From assembly GCA_945787525.1 (NCBI GenBank), contig CALZJC010000008.1, forward strand, positions 1 to 39,279: DNA of 39,279 bases, read 5' to 3'. Origin of the DNA: Thermoanaerobaculia bacterium. GTDB lineage: Bacteria > Acidobacteriota > Thermoanaerobaculia > Multivoradales > JAHEKO01. Position 1 is the stretch's first letter. Each line of letters starts with the position of its first letter. Made by a program: the position numbers and the translations under genes. Shown here piece after piece: positions 15,705 to 35,975 of the stretch. A model generated the notes under the pieces. That model did no database searches and was not told where the DNA came from. It was given only the letters and a program-made list of their open reading frames with translations.

Positions 15705-17858
15705 TTGAGAGGGAGAGCTTCATCGACCGCGGCTCGGGCCCTGGCCCTGGCCTGCCTGGTGGCGGTGGCCGCCGCCGTGCCGGCGGTCGCCTATGTCGGC
15801 CCGGGTGCCGGCTTCGCCCTGGTCTCGTCGTTTCTGGTGATCTTCGTCACCCTGATCCTGGCCCTCGTCTCGCTGCTCATCTGGCCGATCAGGACACTCT
15901 GGCGGGTGCTGCGCCGCACCCGCCGCGCCAAGCCGACGATCCGGCGCCTCATCGTCGTCGGCCTCGACGGCCAGGATCCCCGTCTCACCGACCGCTTCCT
16001 GGCCGAGGGCAAGCTGCCCAACTTCCAGAGGCTGGCCGAGGCGGGCTGCTACTCGAAGCTGCGCACGACCTTCCCCTCGGTCTCGCCCGTCGCCTGGTCG
16101 TCGTTCTCCACCGGTGCGAACCCCGCCAAACACAACATCTTCGACTTCCTCGACCGTGATCTGCGCACCTATCTGCCCACCCTGTCGTCGACCCACATCG
16201 GCTCGGTGGACCGGTTTCTCAAGATCGGCAAGTACCGGTTGCCCCTCGGCAAACCGGAGCTGCGGCTGCTGCGCAAATCGAAGCCCTTCTGGACGATCCT
16301 GGGCGAGCAGAACATCTGGAGCACGATCCTGCGGGTGCCCATCACCTTCCCGCCGGACCGCTTCTACGGCGCCCAGCTGGCGGCCATGTGCGTACCCGAC
16401 CTGCTGGGCACGCAGGGCACATTCTTGCTCTTCACCACCCGCCCGACGGGCGAGAAGTTCAAGGAAGGCGGCATGCGGGTGCCCCTGACCGGCGACACCG
16501 ACGGAAACGGCAACGGCCGCTACGAGGCCACCATCGAGGGCCCCGAGAACCTGTTTCTCGAAGACAGCCCGACGATGACCCTGCCGCTGGTGATCGATCT
16601 CAACGGTGACGGCGAGCGCGGCCAGGTGACCCTCGGCAAGGAGACGGTCGAGCTCGAGCGCGGCAAGCTGACCGACTGGGTCACGATGTCGTTCCGCGCC
16701 GCGCCGGGCGTCAAGGTCAACGGCATCTGCAGGATGCTGCTGACCGAGACCGGCGAGCACGTCTCGCTCTATATGACGCCGATCAGCCTGGACCCCGAGA
16801 ACCCGGCAATGCCGATCTCGCATCCCAACTACTACTCGACGTACCTGGCCAAGCTGATCGGCCCTTACTCGGCCCTCGGACTGGCCGAGGACACCTGGGC
16901 TCTGAACGAAGGCGTCATCGACGACAGCACCTTCCTCGAGCTGACCTACGACATCGATGACGAGCGCGAAAAGATGTTCTTTGCCGCCATGGACCGGCTG
17001 CGGATGGGTTCACTGGTCTGCGTTTTCGACGGCACCGACCGTATTCAGCACATGTTCTGGCGCTATCTCGATCCGGACCACCCGGCGGGCGGCGACCGCG
17101 ATCAGGCCGAGCACAAGGACGCCATCGAGAAGCTGTATCTGCGTAACGACAGACTGGTCGGCAAGGTCATGGATCGTCTGCGGGACGGGGATCTGCTGAT
17201 GGTGCTGTCGGACCACGGCTTCACCTCCTTCCGCCGCGGCATCAACCTCAACAGCTGGCTGCTGGCCAACGGCTATCTCAAGCTCAAGGAGGGCGCCGAC
17301 GGCGCCGCCGAGTGGCTCCGGGACGTCGACTGGTCCGGGACCCGTGCCTACGCCGTCGGCCTGACCGGCATGTTTCTCAACCTCGAGGGTCGCGAGTCAG
17401 AGGGCGTTGTCAAGCCGGGCGAGGAGGCGACGGCGTTGAAGGCCGAGCTGATCGCCAAGCTCAATGGGCTCGAAGACGAGGAGAAGGGCGAGATCGGCAT
17501 CACCGAGGTGTTCGACACCGCCGAGATCTACCACGGTCCCTACAAGGGCAACGCGCCGGATTTTCTGATCGGCTACAACTCCGGCTACCGCACCTCCTGG
17601 GATTGCGCCACCGGAGTCGTTGCCGGCCCGGTCTTCGAGGACAACGTCAAGGCCTGGAGCGGCGACCACTGCGTCGATCCGCGCCAGGTGCCCGGCGTCT
17701 TCTTCTGCAGCCGGCCGATCGACTCCGAGGACCCGGCGCTGATCGACGTGGCGCCGACCGCGCTGGAGCTCTTTGGGCTCGAGCCGCCGGCCCACATGGA
17801 GGGGCGATCGCTGTTTGACACCGCCCAGGCGAAGCGCGGCCCCGGAGGTGAATCGTGA
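15705..17858 (+). CDS. AlkP-superfamily phosphodiesterase/phosphatase, membrane-anchored
   Basis: N-terminal AYVGPGAGF and TM; LIVVGLDGQDPRL, SVSPVAWSSFSTG, LLMVLSDHGF. Proposed TTG start at 15705. Confidence 0.87.
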   Translation: MRGRASSTAARALALACLVAVAAAVPAVAYVGPGAGFALVSSFLVIFVTLILALVSLLIWPIRTLWRVLRRTRRAKPTIRRLIVVGLDGQDPRLTDRFLAEGKLPNFQRLAEAGCYSKLRTTFPSVSPVAWSSFSTGANPAKHNIFDFLDRDLRTYLPTLSSTHIGSVDRFLKIGKYRLPLGKPELRLLRKSKPFWTILGEQNIWSTILRVPITFPPDRFYGAQLAAMCVPDLLGTQGTFLLFTTRPTGEKFKEGGMRVPLTGDTDGNGNGRYEATIEGPENLFLEDSPTMTLPLVIDLNGDGERGQVTLGKETVELERGKLTDWVTMSFRAAPGVKVNGICRMLLTETGEHVSLYMTPISLDPENPAMPISHPNYYSTYLAKLIGPYSALGLAEDTWALNEGVIDDSTFLELTYDIDDEREKMFFAAMDRLRMGSLVCVFDGTDRIQHMFWRYLDPDHPAGGDRDQAEHKDAIEKLYLRNDRLVGKVMDRLRDGDLLMVLSDHGFTSFRRGINLNSWLLANGYLKLKEGADGAAEWLRDVDWSGTRAYAVGLTGMFLNLEGRESEGVVKPGEEATALKAELIAKLNGLEDEEKGEIGITEVFDTAEIYHGPYKGNAPDFLIGYNSGYRTSWDCATGVVAGPVFEDNVKAWSGDHCVDPRQVPGVFFCSRPIDSEDPALIDVAPTALELFGLEPPAHMEGRSLFDTAQAKRGPGGES

Positions 17859-19831
17859 ACGTGTTCGTCCGGCGCCGCGGCGGGGCGCGCCGTTGGGCCG
17901 TTGTGACGCTGCTGGCGGTGGCCTGCGCGGGGCTCGCGGCCAGCTCTTGCTCCCGATCCGCCGACGGCGGCGGCCAGCGGGTCATCGTTCTGGGTTTTGA
18001 CGGCATGGACCACGGCGTGGTCACGCGGCTGATGGCGGAGGGCCGGTTGCCCAACCTGTCCCGGCTGGCGGAGGCCGGCAGCTTCTCGCCGCTGGAGACG
18101 TCGGTGCCGCCACAAAGCCCGGTGGCCTGGTCGGATTTCATCACCGGTATGGACGCCGGCGGCCACGGCATCTTCGATTTCGTGCACCGCGATCCCGCGA
18201 CCATGCTGCCGTACCTGTCGACCAGCCGGGCCGAGACCTCCGAGGACTGCTACGGCATCGGTAGCTGGAAAGTGCCGGGACCGGGCGGCAAGATCGAGCT
18301 GTTGCGCCGCGGCGTGCCGTTCTGGGAAGTGCTGGAGGACAACGGCGTGGAGAGCTGGATCGTGCGCATGCCGGCCAACTTTCCGCCCTCGGGCAGCGCC
18401 TCGGTCGAGCTCAGCGGCATGGGCACCCCGGACGCGGTGGGCTCGCCCGGCGAGTTCTCGTTCTACACCTCGGAGCTGTTCGCCTTCGAGGGCGAGGACA
18501 TCAGCGGCGGCGAGATCTACCCGGTGGACTACTGGGAAGGCACTGCCGAAGCCACCCTCTACGGACCTCCCAACACCTGCCTTCCCGGCCGGCCTCAGCT
18601 GACGGTGGACTTCACGGTGCACGTGGACCCCGTCGAGCCGGTGGCCAAGCTGGTGGTGGGCGACGAGCAGCGGCTGCTGATGGTGGGGGAGTGGAGTGAC
18701 TGGCTGCCGATCTCCTTCCCCCTGCCCCTGGGTGACCTGCAGGTGATCGCCCGCTTCTACCTCAAGTCGGTGCGGCCCGAGCTCGAGCTCTACGTGACGC
18801 CGTTCCAGATCGATCCTGAGCACCCCGCGATGCCGATCTCGACACCGGACGGCTTTGCCGGCGAGCTGGTCGAGGCGGCCGGGCGCTACTACACCCAGGG
18901 CATGCCAGAGGACACCAAGGCGCTGACCGAGGGCGTGCTCTCCGAGGAGGAGTTCCTCCGCCAGGCGGCCTACACCGGCCGGCAGTTCATCGATCAGTAC
19001 AAGTGGGTGTTGGACCGCTTCGACGGCGGCTTCCTGTTCTACTACTTCGGTAACCTGGACCAAACCTCGCACATGCTGTGGGACACGCTGGATCCCGGTC
19101 ACCCCGCCTACGTCGCCGAGACCGACGCCCGGTTTGCGGATGTCATCGAGTCGCTCTACCAGGAGCTCGATGGCGTAGTCGGCTACACCCTGGATCGCAT
19201 CGGCGACGACACCACGCTGGTCGTGATGTCGGATCATGGCTTCGGCAGCTGGCGCCGGGTGTTCCATCTCAACAACTGGCTCGAGGAGAACGGTTACCTG
19301 GTCCTCAAGGATCCGAACCGCCGGGACCCCGGCGTGTACCGCAATGTCGACTGGAGCCGCACCCGCGCCTACGGGCTGGGGCTCAACGGTCTCTTCATCA
19401 ACCTGCGGGGGCGCGAGAGGAGCGGCATCGTGCCGGCGGAGGATCGCACGGCTCTGTTGGAGGAGATCACCGAGAGGCTCCTGGCTACGGTCGACCCCCA
19501 GACCGGCGAGCCGGCTGTCACCGAGGTCTGGCCGCGCGAGCGGTACCGCGATCGCGGCTATCTGGAGATCGGCCCCGACATCCAGATCGGCTACGCCTGG
19601 GGCACGCGCGGCTCGGGCAAGTCGGCGATCGGCGACTTCACCGACTCGGTCTTCAGCGACAACCTGGACGACTGGCCGGGTGACCACTGCTGGGATCACA
19701 CCACGGTGCCCGGGATCCTGCTCACCAACCGAGACCTCGGCCGGCCGGTGGTCAAGCTGACCGATCTGGCCGGCGCCATCCTCGCCCAGTTCGGCATCGA
19801 AGATTTCCCGGCCGGAACCCCGTCCTCCTAG
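17855..19831 (+). CDS. AlkP-superfamily phosphodiesterase/phosphatase, putative lipoprotein, paralogue of the upstream gene
   Basis: GTG start overlaps the preceding stop (GTGA). VIVLGFDGMDHG, QSPVAWSDFITG, LVVMSDHGFGSWRR; N-terminal signal with Cys (SSCSRS). Confidence 0.87.
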   Translation: MNVFVRRRGGARRWAVVTLLAVACAGLAASSCSRSADGGGQRVIVLGFDGMDHGVVTRLMAEGRLPNLSRLAEAGSFSPLETSVPPQSPVAWSDFITGMDAGGHGIFDFVHRDPATMLPYLSTSRAETSEDCYGIGSWKVPGPGGKIELLRRGVPFWEVLEDNGVESWIVRMPANFPPSGSASVELSGMGTPDAVGSPGEFSFYTSELFAFEGEDISGGEIYPVDYWEGTAEATLYGPPNTCLPGRPQLTVDFTVHVDPVEPVAKLVVGDEQRLLMVGEWSDWLPISFPLPLGDLQVIARFYLKSVRPELELYVTPFQIDPEHPAMPISTPDGFAGELVEAAGRYYTQGMPEDTKALTEGVLSEEEFLRQAAYTGRQFIDQYKWVLDRFDGGFLFYYFGNLDQTSHMLWDTLDPGHPAYVAETDARFADVIESLYQELDGVVGYTLDRIGDDTTLVVMSDHGFGSWRRVFHLNNWLEENGYLVLKDPNRRDPGVYRNVDWSRTRAYGLGLNGLFINLRGRERSGIVPAEDRTALLEEITERLLATVDPQTGEPAVTEVWPRERYRDRGYLEIGPDIQIGYAWGTRGSGKSAIGDFTDSVFSDNLDDWPGDHCWDHTTVPGILLTNRDLGRPVVKLTDLAGAILAQFGIEDFPAGTPSS

Positions 19832-21978: not shown

Positions 21979-23274
21979 ATGGGTTCCTGTGACGATCTCC
22001 TGACGCTGCCTGACGTATTCTCCACCAAACCCGAGGCGTCGAATACCAGCAACGGCGCCAGCGCGGCGGTTGCGGCGCAGATACTCGGAGGCGGCATCCT
22101 GAAGATCGGCCCACGGATCCTGCTGGTTGACGAGAACGTGGAGGATCGCGCGCTCGCGGCGACGGTTCTGTCGCGCCACCTGCCGGAGGCGCGGCTGGAC
22201 GAGGTGGGGCATGCGGCCGACTTCGCCCGCGCGCTGGGCGCCGGCCGCTTCGACGTTCTGATCAGCGAGTTCCATCTCAGCTGGTCGGAGGGCGACAAGC
22301 TGCTGGCGGCGGTGCGCGACAGTCGTCCCGAGATCCCGGTGCTCTTCTTCTGCGCCGACGCCGAGGTCCAGGAGGTCGTGGAGGCGATGAAGCGGGGAGT
22401 GGCCGACTTTCTCTTCAAGACCTCGTCAGGATATCTCCGATTGCCCCGGGCGGTGGAGCAGGCGCTGGATCTCGCCCGCCGGCGCCAGCTGGCGGCGCGC
22501 AGCGAGGGACGGCGCGACCTCGAGCACAAGATCGCCGCTCTCGAGCAGACCAACGCGCGCCTCGGGGACTTCGCTTCGATCGCTTCGCACGAGCTGCAGG
22601 AGCCGTTGCGCATGGTGGAGAAGTACGGCGCCCTGGTCGCCGAGGGCGGCGGCAAGCTGACGGGTGAGCAGCGGGAAGCGCTGGAGTTCGTCCGTGGCGG
22701 CGCTCGCCGCATGCGTACTCTGGTGGAGGATCTGCTAAAGTTCTCGCGTCTGGAGACAGAAGCGAGGGCTTTCGAAGCCTGTGATTGCAGCAGGCTTGTG
22801 GAAGAGGCGGCGAACAACCTGCTCGCCGCGTTCGAGGAGAGCGGAGCCAGAATCGAGCGAGACGAACTTCCAACGGTGTTGGGAGATCACGCGCAACTTG
22901 TTCAGCTCTTTCAGAACCTGCTGGGCAATGCGGTGAAGTTCCGCGGTGACGCGCCGCCAGAGATCCACATCTCGGCCGAACGAAAGGGTGGCGAGTGGGT
23001 CTTCGCGGTCGAGGACAACGGCATCGGCATCGACCCCGCGCGGACAGAAGAGGTCTTCAAGCTGTTCACACGTCTACGGCCCGAGCTGCCCGGCACCGGT
23101 ATCGGATTGGCGCTGTGTCAGAGAATCGTGGAACGCCACGGCGGCCGGATCTGGGTAGAGTCGCGACCCGGCAAGGGCGCGGCGTTCATGTTCACGTTGC
23201 CCGAGCGCGGCTCCGGTGCGAAAGCGCATCCGGCTGCGGCCGAGGCGCTGGAGCAATCGGGTAGCGAGGCCTGA
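21979..23274 (+). CDS. Receiver-histidine kinase hybrid protein with degenerate receiver
   Basis: N-terminal REC-like fold (RILLVDENVEDR...FDVLISEFHL...FLFKTS); HisKA SHELQEPLRMV; HATPase N box LLGNAVKF and G box VEDNGIGI, GTGIGLAL. Confidence 0.9.
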   Translation: MGSCDDLLTLPDVFSTKPEASNTSNGASAAVAAQILGGGILKIGPRILLVDENVEDRALAATVLSRHLPEARLDEVGHAADFARALGAGRFDVLISEFHLSWSEGDKLLAAVRDSRPEIPVLFFCADAEVQEVVEAMKRGVADFLFKTSSGYLRLPRAVEQALDLARRRQLAARSEGRRDLEHKIAALEQTNARLGDFASIASHELQEPLRMVEKYGALVAEGGGKLTGEQREALEFVRGGARRMRTLVEDLLKFSRLETEARAFEACDCSRLVEEAANNLLAAFEESGARIERDELPTVLGDHAQLVQLFQNLLGNAVKFRGDAPPEIHISAERKGGEWVFAVEDNGIGIDPARTEEVFKLFTRLRPELPGTGIGLALCQRIVERHGGRIWVESRPGKGAAFMFTLPERGSGAKAHPAAAEALEQSGSEA

Positions 23275-25442
23275 TGGGCGACGCACCGATCCGGGTACTG
23301 ATGATCGAGGACAGCCCGGGCGACGCCCGGCTGATCGAGATCTATCTGTCACAGGCGACCACCACCACCTACCGGTTGACCCACTGCACGACTCTGGATG
23401 ACGGGCTCGGGCGGCTCGACCGGGACGAGTTCGACATCGTGCTGCTGGATCTCAAGCTACCGGACTCGAGCGGCATCGAGACCTTCGAGCAGACCTACGC
23501 TCGCGCACCGGACGTACCGATCGTGGTCATGACCGGTCACGACGACGCCCAGCTGGCGTTCCGGGCTGTGCGGGAAGGAGCGCAGGACTACCTCGTCAAG
23601 AACAACGTCGACGCGCCGTTGCTCAACCGGTCCATCCGCTACGCGATCGAGCGCAAGCACTACGAGGAGGCTTTGCGGGTCAGCGAGGAGCGCTACGCGC
23701 TGGCCATCAGTGGCGCCAACGACGGGCTGTGGGACTGGGATCTGGAAGAGGACCGGATCCACTACTCGACTCGTTGGAAGGAGATGATCGGCTACGACGA
23801 GGACGAGCTGTCGATCCATCCCGAAGAGTGGTTCAGCCGCGTCCACCCCGACGAGGTGGCGCGACTCAAGCAGGAGATCAGCGATCACCTTTCCGGTCGC
23901 AGCCTGCACTTCAAGCACGAGCATCGGATGCGGCATCGTGACGGCAGTTATCGCTGGATGCTGAGCCGTGGCATCGCGGTGCGCGGCGCCTCGGGCAGGC
24001 CCTGCCGCATGGCGGGCTCGTTGACCGATATCAACGCCCGCAAGATGACCGAGCAGCAGCTGCTGCACGACGCGATGCACGACGCTCTGACGGACCTGCC
24101 CAACTGGGCGCTCTTCATGGATCGATTGGGTGTGGCGATCGCCCAGTGCAAGCGGCGTGACGACCACCAGTTCGCGGTGCTGTTCCTCGACCTGGACCGT
24201 TTCAAGAACATCAACGACAGCCTGGGTCACGCCGTGGGCGACCTGTTGCTGATCAGCATCGCGCGTCGCTTTCGCGCCTTCCTGCGCCCCGGCGACACCG
24301 TCGCCCGGTTGGGCGGCGACGAGTTCGCCATCCTGGCCGACGCCATCGAATCGCCGAGCGACGCGACCCGTATCGCCGAGCGCATCAACGAGGAGCTCGG
24401 CCGGCCGTTCGACCTCCAGGGACACGAGGTCTTCACCAGCGCCAGCATCGGCCTCGCGCTGAGCTCCACGGGCTACGATCGGCCGGAGAAGGTGCTGCGC
24501 GACGCCGACACCGCCATGTACCGGGCCAAGTCGCTGGGCAAGGCCCGGCACGCGATCTTCGACCAGGATATGCACCGCCGCGCCGTCGAGCTGTTGAGCC
24601 TGGAGACCGATCTGCGGCGCGCGGTGACCCGCGACGAGTTCCGCGTCCACTACCAGCCGATCGTCGCGCTGTCGACCGGCGTTCTCGAGGGCTTCGAGGC
24701 GCTGGTTCGCTGGCAGCACCCGGTGAAGGGCCTGGTCTATCCCGAGGAGTTCATCTCGGTGGCCGAGGAGACGGGTCTCATCGTGCCGCTCGGCTGGAAA
24801 GTGATGCACGAGGCCTGCGCCCAGACTGCGGCCTGGCAGAAGCGGTTCCCTGCCGGCCAGCCCCTGACGGTCAGCGTCAACCTGTCCGGCAAGCAGTTTC
24901 GCCAGCCCGAACTGGTAAGGCGGATTGGCGAGATCCTGAGCGACAGCGCGCTCGAACCGTCGAGGCTGTGCCTGGAGATCACCGAGAGCATGATCATGGA
25001 GGACGCCGAATCGGCGGTGGACAAGATGCGCCAGCTGCGCGACGTCGGCGTCGAGCTGCACATCGACGACTTCGGGACCGGCTACTCCTCGCTGAGCTAT
25101 CTGCACCGACTGCCGACCCACACCATCAAGATCGATCGCTCCTTCGTGCGGCGGATGAGCGAGCGCAACGGCAAGTCCCAGATCGTCGGTACCATCGTCA
25201 CGCTGGCGCGCAATCTCGGCATGCGGGTGGCCGCCGAGGGCCTCGAGACCGCCGACCAGCTGGCCAAACTGCGTCAGCTCCAGTGCGAGTACGGTCAGGG
25301 CTTCTTTTTCTCCAAGCCGCTCGACCACGGCGACGCCGGCCGGCTGATCGCCAGCACGGCCATCTCGTGGGTGGTGGCGATGCGCTCTTCGATCAGGGCG
25401 ACGAGGGTGTCGCGGCGGGCCATCAATCCACCGATCTCGTAG
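23274..25442 (+). CDS. Response regulator with PAS, GGDEF and EAL domains
   Basis: REC with DIVLLDLKLPD, VMTG and YLVK; PAS_3; RPGDTVARLGGDEF (I-site RxxD); EALVRWQHP; DDFGTGYSSL; AEGLET. ATGA overlap with upstream kinase. Confidence 0.93.
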   Translation: MGDAPIRVLMIEDSPGDARLIEIYLSQATTTTYRLTHCTTLDDGLGRLDRDEFDIVLLDLKLPDSSGIETFEQTYARAPDVPIVVMTGHDDAQLAFRAVREGAQDYLVKNNVDAPLLNRSIRYAIERKHYEEALRVSEERYALAISGANDGLWDWDLEEDRIHYSTRWKEMIGYDEDELSIHPEEWFSRVHPDEVARLKQEISDHLSGRSLHFKHEHRMRHRDGSYRWMLSRGIAVRGASGRPCRMAGSLTDINARKMTEQQLLHDAMHDALTDLPNWALFMDRLGVAIAQCKRRDDHQFAVLFLDLDRFKNINDSLGHAVGDLLLISIARRFRAFLRPGDTVARLGGDEFAILADAIESPSDATRIAERINEELGRPFDLQGHEVFTSASIGLALSSTGYDRPEKVLRDADTAMYRAKSLGKARHAIFDQDMHRRAVELLSLETDLRRAVTRDEFRVHYQPIVALSTGVLEGFEALVRWQHPVKGLVYPEEFISVAEETGLIVPLGWKVMHEACAQTAAWQKRFPAGQPLTVSVNLSGKQFRQPELVRRIGEILSDSALEPSRLCLEITESMIMEDAESAVDKMRQLRDVGVELHIDDFGTGYSSLSYLHRLPTHTIKIDRSFVRRMSERNGKSQIVGTIVTLARNLGMRVAAEGLETADQLAKLRQLQCEYGQGFFFSKPLDHGDAGRLIASTAISWVVAMRSSIRATRVSRRAINPPIS

Positions 25443-27460
25443 CCGCCCAGATAGGGCTCGAGCCGGCGCCGCACCTCGGTCTCGTCGAGACCGCGCAACG
25501 CCTGGAAGAGGCGGCGCGAGCAGCGCCCGATCCGTTCCGGAGACGGCAGCTGCTTCATCCGGCCGAAGGTCCGGGTGTGGTCGATGAACCAGAGGTTCCA
25601 GTCGGAGTCGTAGAGGATGTTGCCCTGATTGCGGTCGATGTTGTTGGCCAGGTTGTCGAAGACCAGCATGTCCTTGGCGGTGAGACGCCAGTCGCCCGGC
25701 GGCGCGAGCTTCTTCTGCCGGCGATCGGACTCCGTCTGGGAGCTCTCGATCCAGAGCTGCACCGACCCCTTGTCGCGTCCCACCCTGCGCACGACCGCGG
25801 GCGGCACGTTGGTCATGCCGAGCATCCGACTGAGCTCGAACGCGGCGACGTTGTTGGCATAGTGATCGCGAAAGAAGTTCACCACCCTGCCACCGTGCAG
25901 GCGCTCGCGCCGCTTCTCGATACTCACGGTGTGGAAGATGGCATGCGCCCGCACTCCATCGCGCTCGAGCAGCAGCTTCCTGGGCAGGGTCACGCCGGTT
26001 TCGATGCCGCTGGTCTTCACCACCTTGGCGGTGGCCAGGAAATCGAGGACTTCGTCCACTTCGGCAAACGGCAGCGGCTTGCCGTCCGGGCCGATCCAGA
26101 CGGGTTCCGCCGGTAGGGAAGCGGTCGTCTCGACCTCGTCGCTGCCGGTCGCCGCCGCCGCGGCCGGATCCTGGTGCCCGTTGGTGGATTCGACCGGCTC
26201 GTCACCGTGACCGTTGCTGCCCTCGACCGGATCCGGCGGCGCTTTCCCGACGTCCGGGGTCGGCGCAGCCCCGCCGGCCAGCGGCACGCGTTCGTCGGCG
26301 TAGATCGCCGTCACCCTGTCGCCGTCGATCTCGAGGGCGGCGGCGCGGCCTCCCAGCTCGGCGTAGGCCATGGCGGTGTCGATGAGGTACACGCGGCCGT
26401 CGAAGCGAGAGCGGATGTCGCCCGGCTGCGGCGTGTGGCCGACGGCGATGCGCTTGGCGCCGAAGGCCTCCAGAACGCCCTCCAGCTCAGGCGCCAGGTC
26501 GGTCTCGCCGGCATTCGCCAGGCCCCGGTACCAGAGCGGGCCGCTCTCCTCGGTGGGAAACCAGCCACTCATCCCAGGTAGCCGCGCGTTGAGCTCCGCG
26601 AGGTCCGCGCGCCGCTCCAGCGCCGCGGCGCCGCCGTCATGTTCGAGTCGGGCCATTTCGACGAACAGGGAGCAGTACATCTCCCAGAGGCTGGAGAAGG
26701 GCAGGATGACGGCCTCGTCGAGCAGGCGTTGGCGGTCCTGGTCGAACTGCTCTATCGCCAGCCTGCCGGCCTCGTTGATCGCCGCTACCGACCGATAACC
26801 CTGCTCGACGAGAGCCGGGCTGATGCCGCCGTGCAGAAAGACCGAGCCCTCGATCTCGACAACCAGGCCGAGGCCGCGCAGCCAGCTGCCGTACTCGCCG
26901 GCCGGCGACAGCGCTTCGATGTACTCGACATAACCCGGTGGGTGGTCCTCGAACCAGGCGCCGCGGTCGTCGATCCAGGCCCGGTTACCCTCTTTGACGC
27001 AGCCGGGATAGCGTTTCTGCCAGCCGCGCCACTTCTTGTACCCCGCCTTTTGCCGCCGCCCGGCGTCGGTGCCGGCGAAGTCGCTCCAGATCTCGCGGTA
27101 GACCCTGGCCGGTGTCGACTGCTCGTCGAAGAGGTTGGCCAGGTTGCTGATCTCGTGGTTGCCGAGCAGCCCCACAACGCGGCCGCCGCGGCTCGGCGCC
27201 TGCTCCTGGAGAGAGCGCAGCCGGTCCATCACGGCTCGCACTCGCGGACCTCGATCGGTCAGATCGCCGGTCTGCACCAGGATCGCGTCGCCGCCCACCC
27301 AATTGCCGTCCTGGTCCATCAGGGCTGCCGCCCGGAGCACGGAGTCGAACCCCTCGATCTCGCCGTGCACGTCGCCGACCGCGACGATGCGCGCCGCCCA
27401 GGCGGTGCCTTGAGGAAGCAGCCAGATGAGACCGGCGAGCAGGAGGAGTGCGCGGACCAT
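25295..27460 (-). CDS. Exported PPP-type metallophosphatase fused to a PI-kinase/HipA/Fam20-like kinase-fold domain
   Basis: Signal peptide MVRALLLLAGLIWLLPQGTAWAA; GDVHG, GDLTDRG, GNHE, HGGIS, GHTPQPGD; then C-terminal VFDNLANNIDRNQGNILYDSDWNLWFIDHTRTF. Confidence 0.82.
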   Translation of the reverse strand: MVRALLLLAGLIWLLPQGTAWAARIVAVGDVHGEIEGFDSVLRAAALMDQDGNWVGGDAILVQTGDLTDRGPRVRAVMDRLRSLQEQAPSRGGRVVGLLGNHEISNLANLFDEQSTPARVYREIWSDFAGTDAGRRQKAGYKKWRGWQKRYPGCVKEGNRAWIDDRGAWFEDHPPGYVEYIEALSPAGEYGSWLRGLGLVVEIEGSVFLHGGISPALVEQGYRSVAAINEAGRLAIEQFDQDRQRLLDEAVILPFSSLWEMYCSLFVEMARLEHDGGAAALERRADLAELNARLPGMSGWFPTEESGPLWYRGLANAGETDLAPELEGVLEAFGAKRIAVGHTPQPGDIRSRFDGRVYLIDTAMAYAELGGRAAALEIDGDRVTAIYADERVPLAGGAAPTPDVGKAPPDPVEGSNGHGDEPVESTNGHQDPAAAAATGSDEVETTASLPAEPVWIGPDGKPLPFAEVDEVLDFLATAKVVKTSGIETGVTLPRKLLLERDGVRAHAIFHTVSIEKRRERLHGGRVVNFFRDHYANNVAAFELSRMLGMTNVPPAVVRRVGRDKGSVQLWIESSQTESDRRQKKLAPPGDWRLTAKDMLVFDNLANNIDRNQGNILYDSDWNLWFIDHTRTFGRMKQLPSPERIGRCSRRLFQALRGLDETEVRRRLEPYLGGYEIGGLMARRDTLVALIEERIATTHEMAVLAISRPASPWSSGLEKKKP

Positions 27461-27888
27461 CAGTCGATCTTCTCATCCCGCTCTCTGCGCTGCTCGAGAA
27501 TGCTGCGGAAGAGAGCCTTGACGATCTCGATGTTGTGCGACAGCAGATCGAAGAAGTCCTCGGCGGTGATCTCCAGCACCAGGCTGTCCTCCTCGGCCAC
27601 CGCGGCGCGCGAGCGCAGCCTGCCGCTGAGGATCTCGCTGACGCCGAAGGTCTCGCCCGGTCCGACCCGCCGTGACCTGCCGCCGTCGATGGTGCTAACC
27701 GCGCCCTCCACCACGCAGTACAGCTCGCCGGCCTCCTCGCCGGGACTGTAAACCTTCTCGCCGGTTTCCAGGCGTCGCTGATGCACGATGGCGGAGATCC
27801 GCAGGATCTGCTCGGCGGTGCAGGCGGAGAAGAAGTCGACGCTCTGCAGGAAGAGAACCGTCTCGATGCGGGGCAGCTGGCTCATCAC
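27460..27888 (-). CDS. Cyclic nucleotide-binding domain protein
   Basis: cNMP-binding fold: GEKVYSPGEEAGELYCVVEGAVSTI...VGPGETFGVSEILSGRLRSRAAVAEEDSLVLEI. Confidence 0.88.
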   Translation of the reverse strand: MMSQLPRIETVLFLQSVDFFSACTAEQILRISAIVHQRRLETGEKVYSPGEEAGELYCVVEGAVSTIDGGRSRRVGPGETFGVSEILSGRLRSRAAVAEEDSLVLEITAEDFFDLLSHNIEIVKALFRSILEQRRERDEKID

Positions 27889-30710
27889 GTTGGTCGCGTT
27901 ACACCACTGGCGATCCGCTCTTCTGCCCAGCGCGCGGTTTCAGCGACAAAGGGATCGTCTGCCTCGGCCGCCAGGCGGTGCACTTCAGGATATAGCGTCG
28001 AGAGTTTCTCGGCGCAGATTCCGTGCAACGCGGCGACCATCAGGAAGCAGCAGTCCGCGTCATCCCATGCGGGACGGGAGAGGTAGTGGGCGATCACCTC
28101 GGCGAAGTCACGCTGCCGGGTGCCGAAGAGGATCTCCGCCTGTTGCAGCTTGTCGGCCATCGGCTGAGCCTCGATGGCCGCGAAGACCGCCTGCCGAAGT
28201 TTGCCGGTCAGGGTGTTGTCGAGGTACTCCAGAGCGTGGCCGCGGGTGGCCGATCCGCTGGTGGTCAGGCTGCGGTGGGCGTCCCAGATGTGCTCCGGCG
28301 CCCGCAACAGGGCGAGCAGTCCGAACAGGTTCCTCAGGTGGCCTTCCAGCCGGTCGTGGAGCAGCCGGCGGAGCAGGTCCGCAGACCGCGGTCCTCTCTC
28401 CAGGGCGAATACGTCGGCCAGAATCTGCAGGTGGCGCGCCGCCTCACCGATGGCCTGGGCCTCGACTGCGGCCGCCAGCGTCGCCGACAGCGGCTCCGTG
28501 GCGGGAGCGGCGGTGAGCGCCTCGACGATCTTCCGCCGCAGGAAGGGATCGGGCTGCTCGGCCAGGCTCTCGATCAGCGCCGCGCGGGCCGCCGCCGTGC
28601 CGATGCGGATCAGCGTCTTGGGGATGGCGCGGCGCACCCAGACATGCTCATCGGGGTCGTTGAGGAAATGCACCAGCGCCGGGATGGCGACTTCGCCGAA
28701 GGCGACCAGTGATTCGCGTACCTCGTGCTTGAGCTGCCGGTCGCGCAGCAGGGAGATCAGAGTCGGCATGTAGATCGAGCTGACCCCGTCGCGGGCGACC
28801 CGCCGGCGCACCGAAGCGATCGCCTCGCCCACCACCGCCGGCTCCGGGTCGTAGAGCAGCTGCAGCAGGTCGTTGTTGTGGGTAGGCTCGTGCAGGGCAC
28901 CCAGGCAGCGCGCCGCCTCGACGCGGGTCCCGGGCTGCGTGTCGCTCAGCATGTCGCGCAGGGTGCGGCCGGCGCGGGCCGCCATGCCTTCGTCGCCGAG
29001 GTTGGCGAGACAGGCGACGGCGGCAGCGCGCATCGCCGGATCGGGCTCGTCGAGCCGTGGCAGCATCAGCGAGCCCGTGTCCACATGGCGCAGGCTGGCG
29101 AGCACCCGGATCGCCTCGGCGCGCACCTCGGGGTTCTCGTCCCGCAGACGTTTCTCGACCAGCGGCGCGGCGTCGTCGCGCTGGGTGGCGGCGAGGATCT
29201 TCAGGGTCTGATGCCGCACGCCGGCATCGTCGTGATAGAGCAGCACCGGTGGGACCAGGTGCCCCCGGCCGTGGCTGGCCAACAGCTCGAGGGCGTGCCG
29301 CACCTGGCGGCTGTCGGGGCTGCCCAGAGACTGGATCAGGATCTCCAGGGTGCGCGCGTCCGCCAGGTCGATCGGCATGCCGGTGTCGACCGTGTCGCGG
29401 CGCAGCGACTCGCGGTAGGCGTCGACATAGCGGCGATAGACGACCGGCACCACGGCCAGCCAGGCGCCGATCAGCGCCAGGCTGAGCCAGCCGATGTCGA
29501 CCGGCGTCAGCCAGCCGAATACGACTGGCAACAAGAGCAGGGCCGCCAGACCCTTGGCGCCGCGCTGGACCAGCAGGTCGATCACCGCCTTGGCCTTGGC
29601 TCGCAGGGAGTCGGGCACCGGCATGAAGAGCAGCTCGCGGGTCGCCTGGTCGATGGAGTAGCGCAGGCCGTTCTCGCCCACTTTGAGGACCAGCCCGGCG
29701 CCCACGAGCAGGGCGGGGAAGAGGCCGCTGGCGAGCAGCAGCGCGACGGTGCCCGCGCCCAGGGTGACCGGCAGCACCCGCAGGGCGAAACCGACGCCGC
29801 GGCCGCGCTGGATGCGCGACGTCAGCAGGAGCTGGAAGATCACCGCCGCCAGCCCGGTGACGCTGTAGAAGTTGCCGAAGAAGGCGGTGCGCTGGTCGAG
29901 GCCGGTGGTGGCCTGCTGCACCGCCCAGTTGAACTGCAGGTCGACGATCTGGGCGACGACGATCGACAAGACGAAGGCGACCGCCATGATGCGCAGCTGT
30001 GGCGAGCGCGCCACGTCGGCGAGTGCCCGGACCGGTTGGCGCCGCTCGCCGCCGACCGACCGGATGGGCGTGCCGGCGCGGCGCGCGGCGAGCGGCGCCA
30101 GTCCGGCTGCCACCAGCAGCGCGGCGGCGCCGGCCAGCAGCGTGGCGCGGGTGTCGACCAGTCGGCTGACCAGCACGGCGACCTGACCGCCGGCGACGCC
30201 GCCCAGCAGGGCGCCGGCGCCGAGGAAGGCGAAGAGGCGCCGGGCTTGTCTCGGATCGAAGAGCTGCGCCGCCAGGAGCCAGATCTGGCTCAGGTTGAGA
30301 GCGATGACGACGGTGGCCCAGAGATAGAAGACGAACGGCACCCAGGCGGCCGAGAGGCCGTAGAGCCACCAGAAGAGCGCCAGGCTGGCGGCGGTCGAGC
30401 CGCAGGTGAGCGCGGTCAGTCGCGCCGGAGGCAGGCGGTCGGCGAGACTTCCGTAAAGGTAGACGATGGGCAGCGTCAGCAGCGCCACCGCCAGGTAGAC
30501 CACCGGCAGCAGCTCGGCGCCGAAGGTGTCGACGAAGCTCGCCTGGCGAACCGATTTCGTCGCGTACTGGAAACAGACGCAGAAGAAGAAAGTGCCGAAC
30601 AGGGCGAGGACCGTCGGCCCCTCACCGGGATGCAGCTCGACACCGAGGCGGCGCAGGAGGCGGCGGGCGATTCCGGCACCGGGTTCGCCGGGGGGGCTGG
30701 TTCTCATCAC
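27885..30710 (-). CDS. MFS/NTT-like (nucleotide transporter-like) membrane protein with C-terminal HEAT repeats
   Basis: Multiple TM segments in the N-terminal ~430 aa followed by HEAT-type repeats (NPEVRAEAIRVLASL, DPAMRAAAVACLANLGD, GTRVEAARCLGALHE). Confidence 0.8.
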   Translation of the reverse strand: MMRTSPPGEPGAGIARRLLRRLGVELHPGEGPTVLALFGTFFFCVCFQYATKSVRQASFVDTFGAELLPVVYLAVALLTLPIVYLYGSLADRLPPARLTALTCGSTAASLALFWWLYGLSAAWVPFVFYLWATVVIALNLSQIWLLAAQLFDPRQARRLFAFLGAGALLGGVAGGQVAVLVSRLVDTRATLLAGAAALLVAAGLAPLAARRAGTPIRSVGGERRQPVRALADVARSPQLRIMAVAFVLSIVVAQIVDLQFNWAVQQATTGLDQRTAFFGNFYSVTGLAAVIFQLLLTSRIQRGRGVGFALRVLPVTLGAGTVALLLASGLFPALLVGAGLVLKVGENGLRYSIDQATRELLFMPVPDSLRAKAKAVIDLLVQRGAKGLAALLLLPVVFGWLTPVDIGWLSLALIGAWLAVVPVVYRRYVDAYRESLRRDTVDTGMPIDLADARTLEILIQSLGSPDSRQVRHALELLASHGRGHLVPPVLLYHDDAGVRHQTLKILAATQRDDAAPLVEKRLRDENPEVRAEAIRVLASLRHVDTGSLMLPRLDEPDPAMRAAAVACLANLGDEGMAARAGRTLRDMLSDTQPGTRVEAARCLGALHEPTHNNDLLQLLYDPEPAVVGEAIASVRRRVARDGVSSIYMPTLISLLRDRQLKHEVRESLVAFGEVAIPALVHFLNDPDEHVWVRRAIPKTLIRIGTAAARAALIESLAEQPDPFLRRKIVEALTAAPATEPLSATLAAAVEAQAIGEAARHLQILADVFALERGPRSADLLRRLLHDRLEGHLRNLFGLLALLRAPEHIWDAHRSLTTSGSATRGHALEYLDNTLTGKLRQAVFAAIEAQPMADKLQQAEILFGTRQRDFAEVIAHYLSRPAWDDADCCFLMVAALHGICAEKLSTLYPEVHRLAAEADDPFVAETARWAEERIASGVTRPT

Positions 30711-30774: not shown

Positions 30775-30799
30775 AAAAAAAACCGCCCCGCCGGGGCGG
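30775..30799 (-). terminator. Rho-independent terminator downstream of hsp20
   Basis: On the minus strand CCGCCCC-GGC-GGGGCGG hairpin (30783-30799) followed by an eight-T run (30775-30782). Confidence 0.9.
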
Positions 30800-30833
30800 C
30801 GGGGCGGGTTGGAGCGGGCGGATGCCGCGCGGT

Positions 30834-31301
30834 TCAGCTGATGCTGATCTTGCGCGCCTTGGCCAGCTCGGCCTTGGGCACGGTCACCGTCAGCAGGCCG
30901 TTCTCGAAAACGGCGGCGATGCGCTCGGCATCGACGGCGCTCGGCAGCCTGAAGGAGCGCGAGAAGGAGCCGTAGGCGCGCTCGATGCGCCGGTAGTTCT
31001 TCTCCTCGTCCTCCTCGTTGAAGCGCCGCTCACCCTTGATGGTGAGAATGCTGTCCTCGACGGTGATGTCGACCTCGTCCTTGCCGATGCCCGGCAGCTC
31101 CGCCGTGAAGACGAAGGCCTCGTCGCTCTCGCGAACGTCGACCGCCGGCAGCCAGCCGGTCTGACCGAGATCGTCGTTCGGGCGGGTCATGAAGCCAAAC
31201 GGCCGGAAGAGGTCGTCGCTGAACAGCCGATCGAAGTTGCGGAAAAACGGCTCGGCGGTCAGCCCGCTGGGGGTGGTGCGTCGTACCAGGTGCTTTCTCA
31301 T
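30834..31301 (-). CDS. Small heat shock protein (Hsp20/alpha-crystallin)
   Basis: Alpha-crystallin domain FVFTAELPGIGKDEVDITVEDSILTIKGERR and FENGLLTVTVPKAE. Start set at ATG 31301, preceded by AGGAGG; the track extends to 31385. Confidence 0.95.
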   Translation of the reverse strand: MRKHLVRRTTPSGLTAEPFFRNFDRLFSDDLFRPFGFMTRPNDDLGQTGWLPAVDVRESDEAFVFTAELPGIGKDEVDITVEDSILTIKGERRFNEEDEEKNYRRIERAYGSFSRSFRLPSAVDAERIAAVFENGLLTVTVPKAELAKARKISIS

Positions 31302-31425
31302 GATCTTGTCCTCCTGAGGTCTCGATGTTGGTCTCGGCGGGCACCCATGCCCGCCGCGGTGTTCTCTCACCGTCATTAGTAGCAAACACTCAGATCCTGG
31401 GGATTATTTCAGAAAAGCGTAGAAT

Positions 31426-31444
31426 CTTAGTCGAAGCGACTAAG
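31426..31444. promoter_or_regulatory. Inverted repeat upstream of hsp20
   Basis: CTTAGTCG-AAG-CGACTAAG, perfect 8-bp arms, in an AT-richer region. Confidence 0.55.
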
Positions 31445-31601
31445 AAAAGGCCCGATCAGAAGAGCTCGCCTCCACGACCAAGTGGCCTCCCGCCCGAAGC
31501 TGCGCACCGGTCGATCTACAGAGGCCTCGTAAGTGTCTGCAAACGCGCGGCTTGTGGGCGAGGTCGACAAACGCGCCAGGGGCGGGGCCGACAACTCGCC
31601 G

Positions 31602-32324
31602 TCAACCGCTACGAATCACCACGCCGCCCCGCGGGGCCGGGGGCGGCTGGCGCTCGAGGAACAGGCGATACAGCGCGAGACCGGCCAGAAAGCCCCCGAC
31701 GTGGGCCCACCAGGCGATGCCGCCGGCCCCGGCGGCGCCCGAGGCCAGCGCGCTGGCGCCGCTCAGCAGCTGACTGACGAACCAGAAGCCGAGATAGAAG
31801 AGCGCCGGAATCTCGAAGAACAGCGGCCAGAAGAACAGCGGCACCAGGGTCACCACCCGCGACCGGGGGTAGAGCACCAGGTAGGCCCCGAGGACGCCGG
31901 CGATGGCCCCGGAGGCGCCGATGGTCGGCACCGTCGACTCCAGGTTGGTGAGCCAGTGCACCAGCCCGGCCCCCAGGCCGCAGAGCAGGTAGAAGGCGAG
32001 GTAACGGAAGCGCCCCATGCGGTCCTCGACGTTGTCGCCGAAGATCCACAGGGTCCACATGTTGCTCAGCAGATGGAAAAACCCGCCGTGCAGGAACATG
32101 CTGGTGAGGAACGGCAGCGCCAGGCTCTGGGGGTAGCCCGCCTCGGCTGCCCATCCCGGGCTCGAGAATCGAGCCGGCACCATGCCGTAGAGGTGGAAGA
32201 AGCGGGGCAGTCCGCCTTCCGGCAAGGCCAGCTGGTAGGCGAACACCAGGCAGTTGAAGGCGATCAGGCCCCAGGTCACCACCGGTACGCGGCGGCTGGG
32301 GATCGTGTCGCGGAGAGGGAACAT
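31602..32324 (-). CDS. Rhomboid family intramembrane serine protease
   Basis: FLHGGFFHLLSNMWTLWIFGDNVED, catalytic GASGAIAG, and AHVGGFLAG. Confidence 0.95.
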   Translation of the reverse strand: MFPLRDTIPSRRVPVVTWGLIAFNCLVFAYQLALPEGGLPRFFHLYGMVPARFSSPGWAAEAGYPQSLALPFLTSMFLHGGFFHLLSNMWTLWIFGDNVEDRMGRFRYLAFYLLCGLGAGLVHWLTNLESTVPTIGASGAIAGVLGAYLVLYPRSRVVTLVPLFFWPLFFEIPALFYLGFWFVSQLLSGASALASGAAGAGGIAWWAHVGGFLAGLALYRLFLERQPPPAPRGGVVIRSG

Positions 32325-32343
32325 CCGGTGAGAAGGTCAGGCT

Positions 32344-34983
<2,640 letters not shown>

Positions 34984-34994
34984 GACGGTCTACC

Positions 34995-35975
34995 TCAGTC
35001 GCTGCGCCGGGCCTCGAAGGGAGACTCCTCGGCGAGCTCGCTGAACAGCTGTTTTTCGCGGTCGGTCAACGCTTCGGGAACGACGATCTTGAGCTCGGCG
35101 TACAGATCGCCCTGCGCTCCGCCGGAGGCCGGGAAACCAAGGCCGCGCAGCCGGATCTTGCGCCCCGAGGAGGAGCCCGGTGGAATCCGCACGGTGCGCT
35201 CGCCCTCGAGCGTGTCGACGGTGACCTTGCCACCCAGGGCCGCCTCCCACGGGCTCAGCGGCAGCGTGGTCATGAGGTCCGAGCCTTCGAGCCGGTAGCG
35301 TGGATGAGGCAGCAGCTCGATCTTCAGATAGAGCGAGCCGCGTTTGCCTCCTGGCGGCGCCGGGCCGCCCTGATCGGCCAGCCGAATACGCTGCCCCGGG
35401 CGCACGCCGGCCGGGATCTTGACTCTGAGCTTGCGTGTCTGGCCGGTCTCCGGGTCGGTCATCTGGATCTCGCGGCTGCCGCCGCGCGCCGCCTCCTCCA
35501 GCGTCAGTCGGATCTGGGCTTCGCGGTCCTGGCCCCGCGACGGTGCTCGTGCCGTCTGGGCTTCGGGCCAGCCGCTCGTCGACCAGGTGGCCTGCTGTTG
35601 GCCGCCGCCGCCCGCGGCGCCGAACAGCATGTCGAAAAAAGAGCTGAAGCCCGAGGGCGCGCCGCTGAACTCGACCCGCGCGCCGCCGGGGCCGCCCATG
35701 CCGAAACCGAAGATGTCTTCGAAGCCCGGCGGCGGGCCGCCGCTCGTCTGCGCCTGCTGCCAGGCGGAGCCGAAGCGATCGTAGTGGGAGCGCTTCTTGG
35801 TGTCCTTGAGCACCTCGTAGGCCTCGTTGATCTCCTTGAACCTGGCCTCCGCCCCGTCACTCTTGTTGACATCGGGGTGGAGCTTTCGCGCCAGCTTGCG
35901 ATAGGCCTTCTGGATCTCGTCCTGGCTTGCCTTCTTGGCGACACCGAGGGCCTTGTAGTAGTCCTTGTAGTCCAT
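34995..35975 (-). CDS. cbpA: DnaJ-type co-chaperone (CbpA-like, no zinc finger)
   Basis: J domain with HPD (KLHPDVNK), Gly/Phe region, C-terminal peptide-binding domains; no CXXCXGXG repeats. Confidence 0.92.
   Translation of the reverse strand: MDYKDYYKALGVAKKASQDEIQKAYRKLARKLHPDVNKSDGAEARFKEINEAYEVLKDTKKRSHYDRFGSAWQQAQTSGGPPPGFEDIFGFGMGGPGGARVEFSGAPSGFSSFFDMLFGAAGGGGQQQATWSTSGWPEAQTARAPSRGQDREAQIRLTLEEAARGGSREIQMTDPETGQTRKLRVKIPAGVRPGQRIRLADQGGPAPPGGKRGSLYLKIELLPHPRYRLEGSDLMTTLPLSPWEAALGGKVTVDTLEGERTVRIPPGSSSGRKIRLRGLGFPASGGAQGDLYAELKIVVPEALTDREKQLFSELAEESPFEARRSD

Follow-up and report, generated by a model that had tools for sequence, protein, structure and literature searches.

Fusions of nucleotide transporter (NTT) domains to HEAT repeats, with or without a further cNMP-binding domain (NTT-HEAT and NTT-HEAT-cNBD), were described in 2017 by Major, Embley and Williams, and the available text of that survey gives them no function (PMC5381601). 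The same text reports NTT-HEAT fusions as widespread in free-living bacteria and leaves their role open both there and in Chlamydia (PMC5381601). On the kinase side, the bacterial kinase CotH has been reported as Fam20C-like (PMC12189002). A search of the open literature, a scope outside which most subscription journals fall, found no work joining exported FAM20-like kinases with an NTT carrier or an ATP supply. The periplasm is generally taken to be free of ATP, and exported kinases there therefore face a supply problem. The operon described here, which pairs an exported kinase-phosphatase with a carrier of the ATP/ADP translocator family, suggests a way in which bacteria could power extracytoplasmic phosphorylation.

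The operon lies within the window, the 39,279-nucleotide stretch of DNA analysed here, on contig C8 of a 4.43 Mb genome that is 89% complete and whose kin are Acidobacteriota, many of them labelled Thermoanaerobaculia. Three overlapping genes occupy 30710..25295 on the minus strand, exactly where the initial annotation had placed them: an NTT-HEAT gene (30710..27885, 941 aa), a small cNMP-binding-domain gene (27888..27460, 142 aa) and a phosphatase-kinase fusion gene (27460..25295, 721 aa). Both junctions are of the TGATG type. At the first (...ACG TGA TG...), the carrier stop codon is 27887-27885 and the second gene could begin at GTG 27888 or at ATG 27885, the latter, which leaves a one-base overlap, being more likely; at the second (...GAC TGA TGG...), the cNMP stop codon is 27462-27460 and the ATG of the fusion gene lies at 27460. 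Because a strong intrinsic terminator (30783..30807, minus strand; 11 G-C pairs, then a T run) sits upstream, after an Hsp20 gene, the three genes look like a single unit with a putative promoter of its own. Overlapping or very tight junctions are seen again in most relatives, GC3 of the three ORFs is high (0.88-0.90) and all three proteins are conserved; thus, the gene arrangement is not due to chance.

Several neighbouring genes are also recognizable. A chaperone/protease cluster (30834-35975) encoding DnaJ-type, ClpB, rhomboid protease and Hsp20 proteins lies upstream on the same strand as the operon. On the plus strand, a convergent response regulator-PAS-GGDEF-EAL gene (23274-25442) overlaps the fusion gene tail to tail by 148 bp (25295-25442). 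A few kb from the operon, 17855-19831 encodes an exported-looking protein of the type I phosphodiesterase / nucleotide pyrophosphatase family (PF01663).

The product of the first gene joins an NTT-like carrier domain with 12 predicted TM helices (residues ~30-438, window 29397-30623, minus strand) to HEAT repeats (residues ~445-930, window 27921-29378, minus strand; Pfam HEAT_2, 100 bits). Its assignment to the NTT family rather than to generic MFS transporters, proposed in the initial annotation, was upheld: the full-length protein scores 38.4 bits against Pfam TLC (PF03219; cut-off 21) and 32.2 bits against MFS_1, under the cut-off of 33.4 for that family, and the isolated NTT segment scores 44.2 bits against TLC and 33.7 bits, barely over the cut-off, against MFS_1. 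The best structural match of the AlphaFold model of the carrier (mean pLDDT 81) is ATP-bound AtNTT1 (9j3l; E 1.6e-8, TM 0.74 by target length, rmsd 3.6), and the top sequence matches, like the structural ones, are ATP/ADP translocators. Given the higher TLC score and the AtNTT1 fold, an MFS_1 carrier with an unrelated substrate was rejected. From the distribution of positive charge, which is found at the N-terminus, in loop 6-7 and at the C-terminus, the HEAT repeats are predicted to lie on the cytoplasmic side of the membrane.

We take K155, E245, E385 and K527 to be the essential charged residues of AtNTT1; all four letters agree with chain 9j3j at a constant offset of 84, and their counterparts in the carrier are Y72, T133, D257 and K386. 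The expectation that nucleotide-binding residues would be found here was borne out in part, with K386 kept and D257 conservatively acidic, and failed at the other two positions, where K155 is replaced by Y72 and E245 by T133. Across the other carriers linked to a kinase, the majority or even all of the four residues differ. Because half of the key residues are kept, a nucleotide is only a plausible substrate, as judged from sequence. The carrier could instead move another substrate, such as NAD, a phosphorylated metabolite or a sugar nucleotide, with the exported kinase/phosphatase regulating transport from outside or modifying the transported compound. The missing equivalents of K155 and E245 and the presence of E385 only as Asp fit such a reading, as do the glucose-6-phosphate transporter G6PT1/SLC37A4, which comes next among the structural transporter matches, and the existence of NAD-specific NTT family members recorded in the available text of the 2017 survey (PMC5381601). 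We nevertheless regard it as unlikely, given that ATP/ADP translocators top both kinds of matches, that K386 is retained and position 257 has an acidic residue, and that a single NTT-HEAT carrier alongside several kinases in the host genome suits supply over one-to-one regulation.

The small protein encoded by the second gene matches cNMP_binding (PF00027) with 56 bits, has no signal peptide and is conserved within the operon. In its pocket, FGVSEILSGRLR (FGVxEILSGRLR), the phosphate-binding Arg is present and the usual ribose-binding Glu is replaced, unless a shifted alignment puts a neighbouring Glu at that position. A search of the 89%-complete genome for adenylate cyclases, limited to class III, found none. 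The initial annotation had cast this protein as a cNMP sensor gating the carrier; with the usual Glu missing from the pocket and no class III cyclase found, gating by cAMP is unsupported.

The fusion protein begins with a signal peptide (27395..27460, minus strand), MVRALLLLAGLIWLLPQGTAWA followed by ARIVAVGD, with predicted cleavage between AWA and A after residue 22, and its homologues have similar signal peptides. By a simple signal-peptide rule of our own, not SignalP, signal-like starts are present in 72/74 phosphatase ORFs and 42/46 stand-alone kinase ORFs, compared with 0/15 of the cNMP ORFs that served as an internal negative control, in agreement with the export proposed in the initial annotation. 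Residues 23-395 (26276..27394, minus strand) constitute a PPP-type (Shewanella-like) phosphatase domain, which scores 44.6 bits against PF00149 (Metallophos) and matches PDB entries 2z72/1v73 in sequence (E about 1e-23) and in fold (E 7.9e-16). The following residues are present: D30, H32, D66, D69, R70, N101, H102, H210 and H342. The PPP motifs GDVHG, GDLTDRG, GNHE, HGG and GHT are complete and nearly all invariant among 13 homologues.

The kinase domain occupies residues 450-707 (25340..26113, minus strand) and includes D532, D609, N614 and D627. Among the fold matches of its model (pLDDT 81), the first kinase is Fam20C (5yh0; E 3.1e-8), with PI4K and PI3K ranking behind it, and its profile matches are to FAM20A (1.5e-11) and Fam20C1 (9e-9). 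In a Pfam scan, the domain of the window protein passed no kinase family cut-off: Fam20C (PF06702) misses it and is weak in relatives (12/28 at E<0.1, best 3.6e-6), and the CotH family gave no match. Identification as a PI3/PI4 kinase, HipA or TIGR03843/SCO1664 was rejected, all being weaker than FAM20. Across 28 sequences of the family, D609, N614 and D627 are invariant and the position of D532 is acidic (D/E) in all. The catalytic and metal-binding acids of FAM20C are E306, D458 and D478, Q258 being the residue noted for FAM20A; the matching set D532, D609 and D627 is complete in the kinase, with D532 being the likely counterpart of E306 by equal spacing to the next Ala-Ala. The beta-3 Lys position is H510 in the window kinase and H, R, K, Q or N across the family.

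The host genome encodes seven kinase copies, one NTT-HEAT carrier and one short NTT. The six further FAM20-like copies lie on contigs C18, C60, C73, C77, C158 and C246 (L052, L147-L151), the one on C158 being a second exported phosphatase-kinase fusion. A plasmid search with the kinase returned no match.

The order NTT-HEAT, cNMP, phosphatase-kinase is found in at least 11 other genomes (two families, readable carrier) and in one contig-truncated case; in genome G001, carrier, HEAT repeats and cNMP domain form one ORF. Among 79 loci, retrieved solely by similarity to the phosphatase/kinase fusion protein, an NTT is present on 29 and a HEAT stub on 3 more, and a kinase accompanies the NTT on 26 of the 29, in more than 10 gene orders. 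These loci come in part from the same genomes as the 11-genome set, under public names, so the two counts are not to be summed. The neighbourhood survey therefore answers the main objection open to the initial annotation, namely that its association might not recur in other genomes.

In kinase-bearing relatives, a kinase lies within 6 kb of 20/46 NTT matches, where 0.5 would be expected. The kinase is present in 28 of 99 relatives, and a HEAT-type carrier (E<1e-70) in 27 of these 28 and in 0 of the other 71. Since the Fisher test of this co-occurrence ignores shared ancestry, we place weight not on its P-value but on families f3, f6 and f18, each of which contains both states, with and without kinase plus carrier. 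In some kinase genomes the two genes are on separate contigs, and the agreement in presence and absence holds even for such unlinked genes. In one kinase-bearing genome (G118), no NTT was found.

A second group, the relatives of G104 ('Deltaproteobacteria'), shows the same association, with 5/7 kinase copies adjoining an NTT; in two cases an exported phosphatase-kinase is followed within ~20 bp by a single-domain NTT without HEAT repeats. Given these pairs and the varied gene orders, what the loci have in common at their core is the carrier and the kinase, whose link is independent of HEAT repeats, cNMP domain and phosphatase. Other arrangements were observed as well. Tandem NTT-HEAT genes with kinase genes at their flanks occur at L107 (305-9859), without a phosphatase, and at L071 (641-9506). 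Outside the main operon, an exported kinase gene is followed after a short gap by an NTT gene at L144 (5137-7903), where the NTT is single-domain, and at L145 (3384-5913). At L165 (7897-8529), an NTT fragment without its N-terminal half, possibly a broken gene, is divergent from a kinase gene.

These distributions also bear on two further explanations. In one, the operon would serve nucleotide salvage: external phosphoproteins or nucleotides would be dephosphorylated by the exported phosphatase and the product taken up through the carrier, as the location of the phosphatase beside a nucleotide-type carrier and the gene at 17855-19831, of the type I phosphodiesterase / nucleotide pyrophosphatase family, might suggest. 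Salvage, however, needs no exported kinase, yet a kinase adjoins an NTT with no phosphatase visible at two loci (L107, and L128, which begins at a contig end) and the linkage extends to single-domain NTTs; the phosphatase, moreover, is of the PPP protein-phosphatase type. We consider salvage improbable. In the other, the genes would merely share regulation, for example under envelope stress, with no direct biochemical connection among them. The ClpB, DnaJ-type, rhomboid and Hsp20 genes beside the operon are in keeping with this, but the terminator separates them from it, the linkage outlasts many rearrangements and recurs in the second group with a different carrier architecture, and presence and absence agree even for unlinked genes, leaving shared regulation alone with little to recommend it.

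The carrier is not dedicated to kinases everywhere, because NTT-HEAT(-cNBD) is also encoded, with different neighbours, in many genomes that lack the kinase; the idea that NTT-HEAT is always tied to exported kinases was rejected on this ground. In the complete genome of Sulfidibacter corallicola M133, NTT-HEAT, cNMP and exported phosphatase genes stand together in that order and two kinase genes lie elsewhere.

What is established here is the gene structure, the protein families, the signals for export and the conserved linkage and co-occurrence of the genes, and with these in hand we infer catalytic activity, transport substrate, transport direction and regulation as follows. On balance, we lean towards a system for phosphorylation beyond the cytoplasm that has a nucleotide carrier of its own, in which NTT-HEAT would exchange nucleotide to serve exported kinases. 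The FAM20-like kinase of the exported fusion would add phosphate to periplasmic or secreted targets and the PPP phosphatase would remove it. NTT-HEAT, in the inner membrane, would exchange nucleotides, most simply cytosolic ATP out for used ADP in, an exchange suited to kinase supply because it returns ADP, the by-product of the kinase. The carrier would thereby give a phosphate donor to the fusion kinase and to the other exported kinase paralogues of the same genome, and the HEAT repeats and the cNMP protein, on the cytoplasmic side, would probably assemble with the carrier or regulate it. Against this supply model, periplasmic ATP could leak away via porins, and the sequences themselves give pause, with K155 and E245 of AtNTT1 not kept (Y72/T133) and H510 in place of the beta-3 Lys. 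More tentatively, and with somewhat less than even confidence, we extend the proposal to a general system, present in some bacteria, in which NTT-HEAT supplies ATP to sets of exported FAM20-like kinases and their partner phosphatases.

If correct, the supply model would make the conserved carrier-kinase-phosphatase unit a specific answer to the problem of periplasmic ATP. In its general form, it would also explain what the uncharacterised NTT-HEAT proteins do and provide a bacterial counterpart of the ATP-fuelled FAM20 signalling of the eukaryotic secretory pathway. It would be a first functional hypothesis for NTT-HEAT fusions, it draws attention to FAM20-like kinases in free-living bacteria, with several copies per genome, and it makes the question open to testing in S. 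corallicola M133, a strain whose genome is complete.

Compared with known proteins, the carrier resembles AtNTT1 and Chlamydia pneumoniae NTT1 in its 12-TM fold and Pfam TLC membership and differs from them in its HEAT extension and in keeping only 2/4 key charged residues. The phosphatase is like the Shewanella-like PPP phosphatases (1v73, 2z72; RLPH2 5vjv) in sequence, fold and all PPP motifs, but is kinase-fused and carries a signal peptide of its own for export. The kinase shares with Fam20C, FAM20A and FAM20B the fold, the N-lobe motif, the DR..N and metal Asp motifs and a secretion signal; unlike them, it is bacterial, ~255 aa long, often phosphatase-fused and without a conserved beta-3 Lys. 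CotH, in contrast to the window kinase, is a spore coat kinase, and we know of no carrier or phosphatase partner for it. With the NTT-HEAT-cNBD family, the operon shares the succession of NTT, HEAT repeats and a cNMP domain that is either adjacent or fused; it differs in the altered pocket of its cNMP domain, and the exported kinase/phosphatase partner goes unmentioned in the available text of the published account (PMC5381601). The initial annotation, which knew of no description of the combination, was thus mistaken about the NTT-HEAT and cNMP part, already in print since 2017; what is new here is the exported FAM20-like enzyme partner. There is a real chance that the whole assembly represents a new kind of system.
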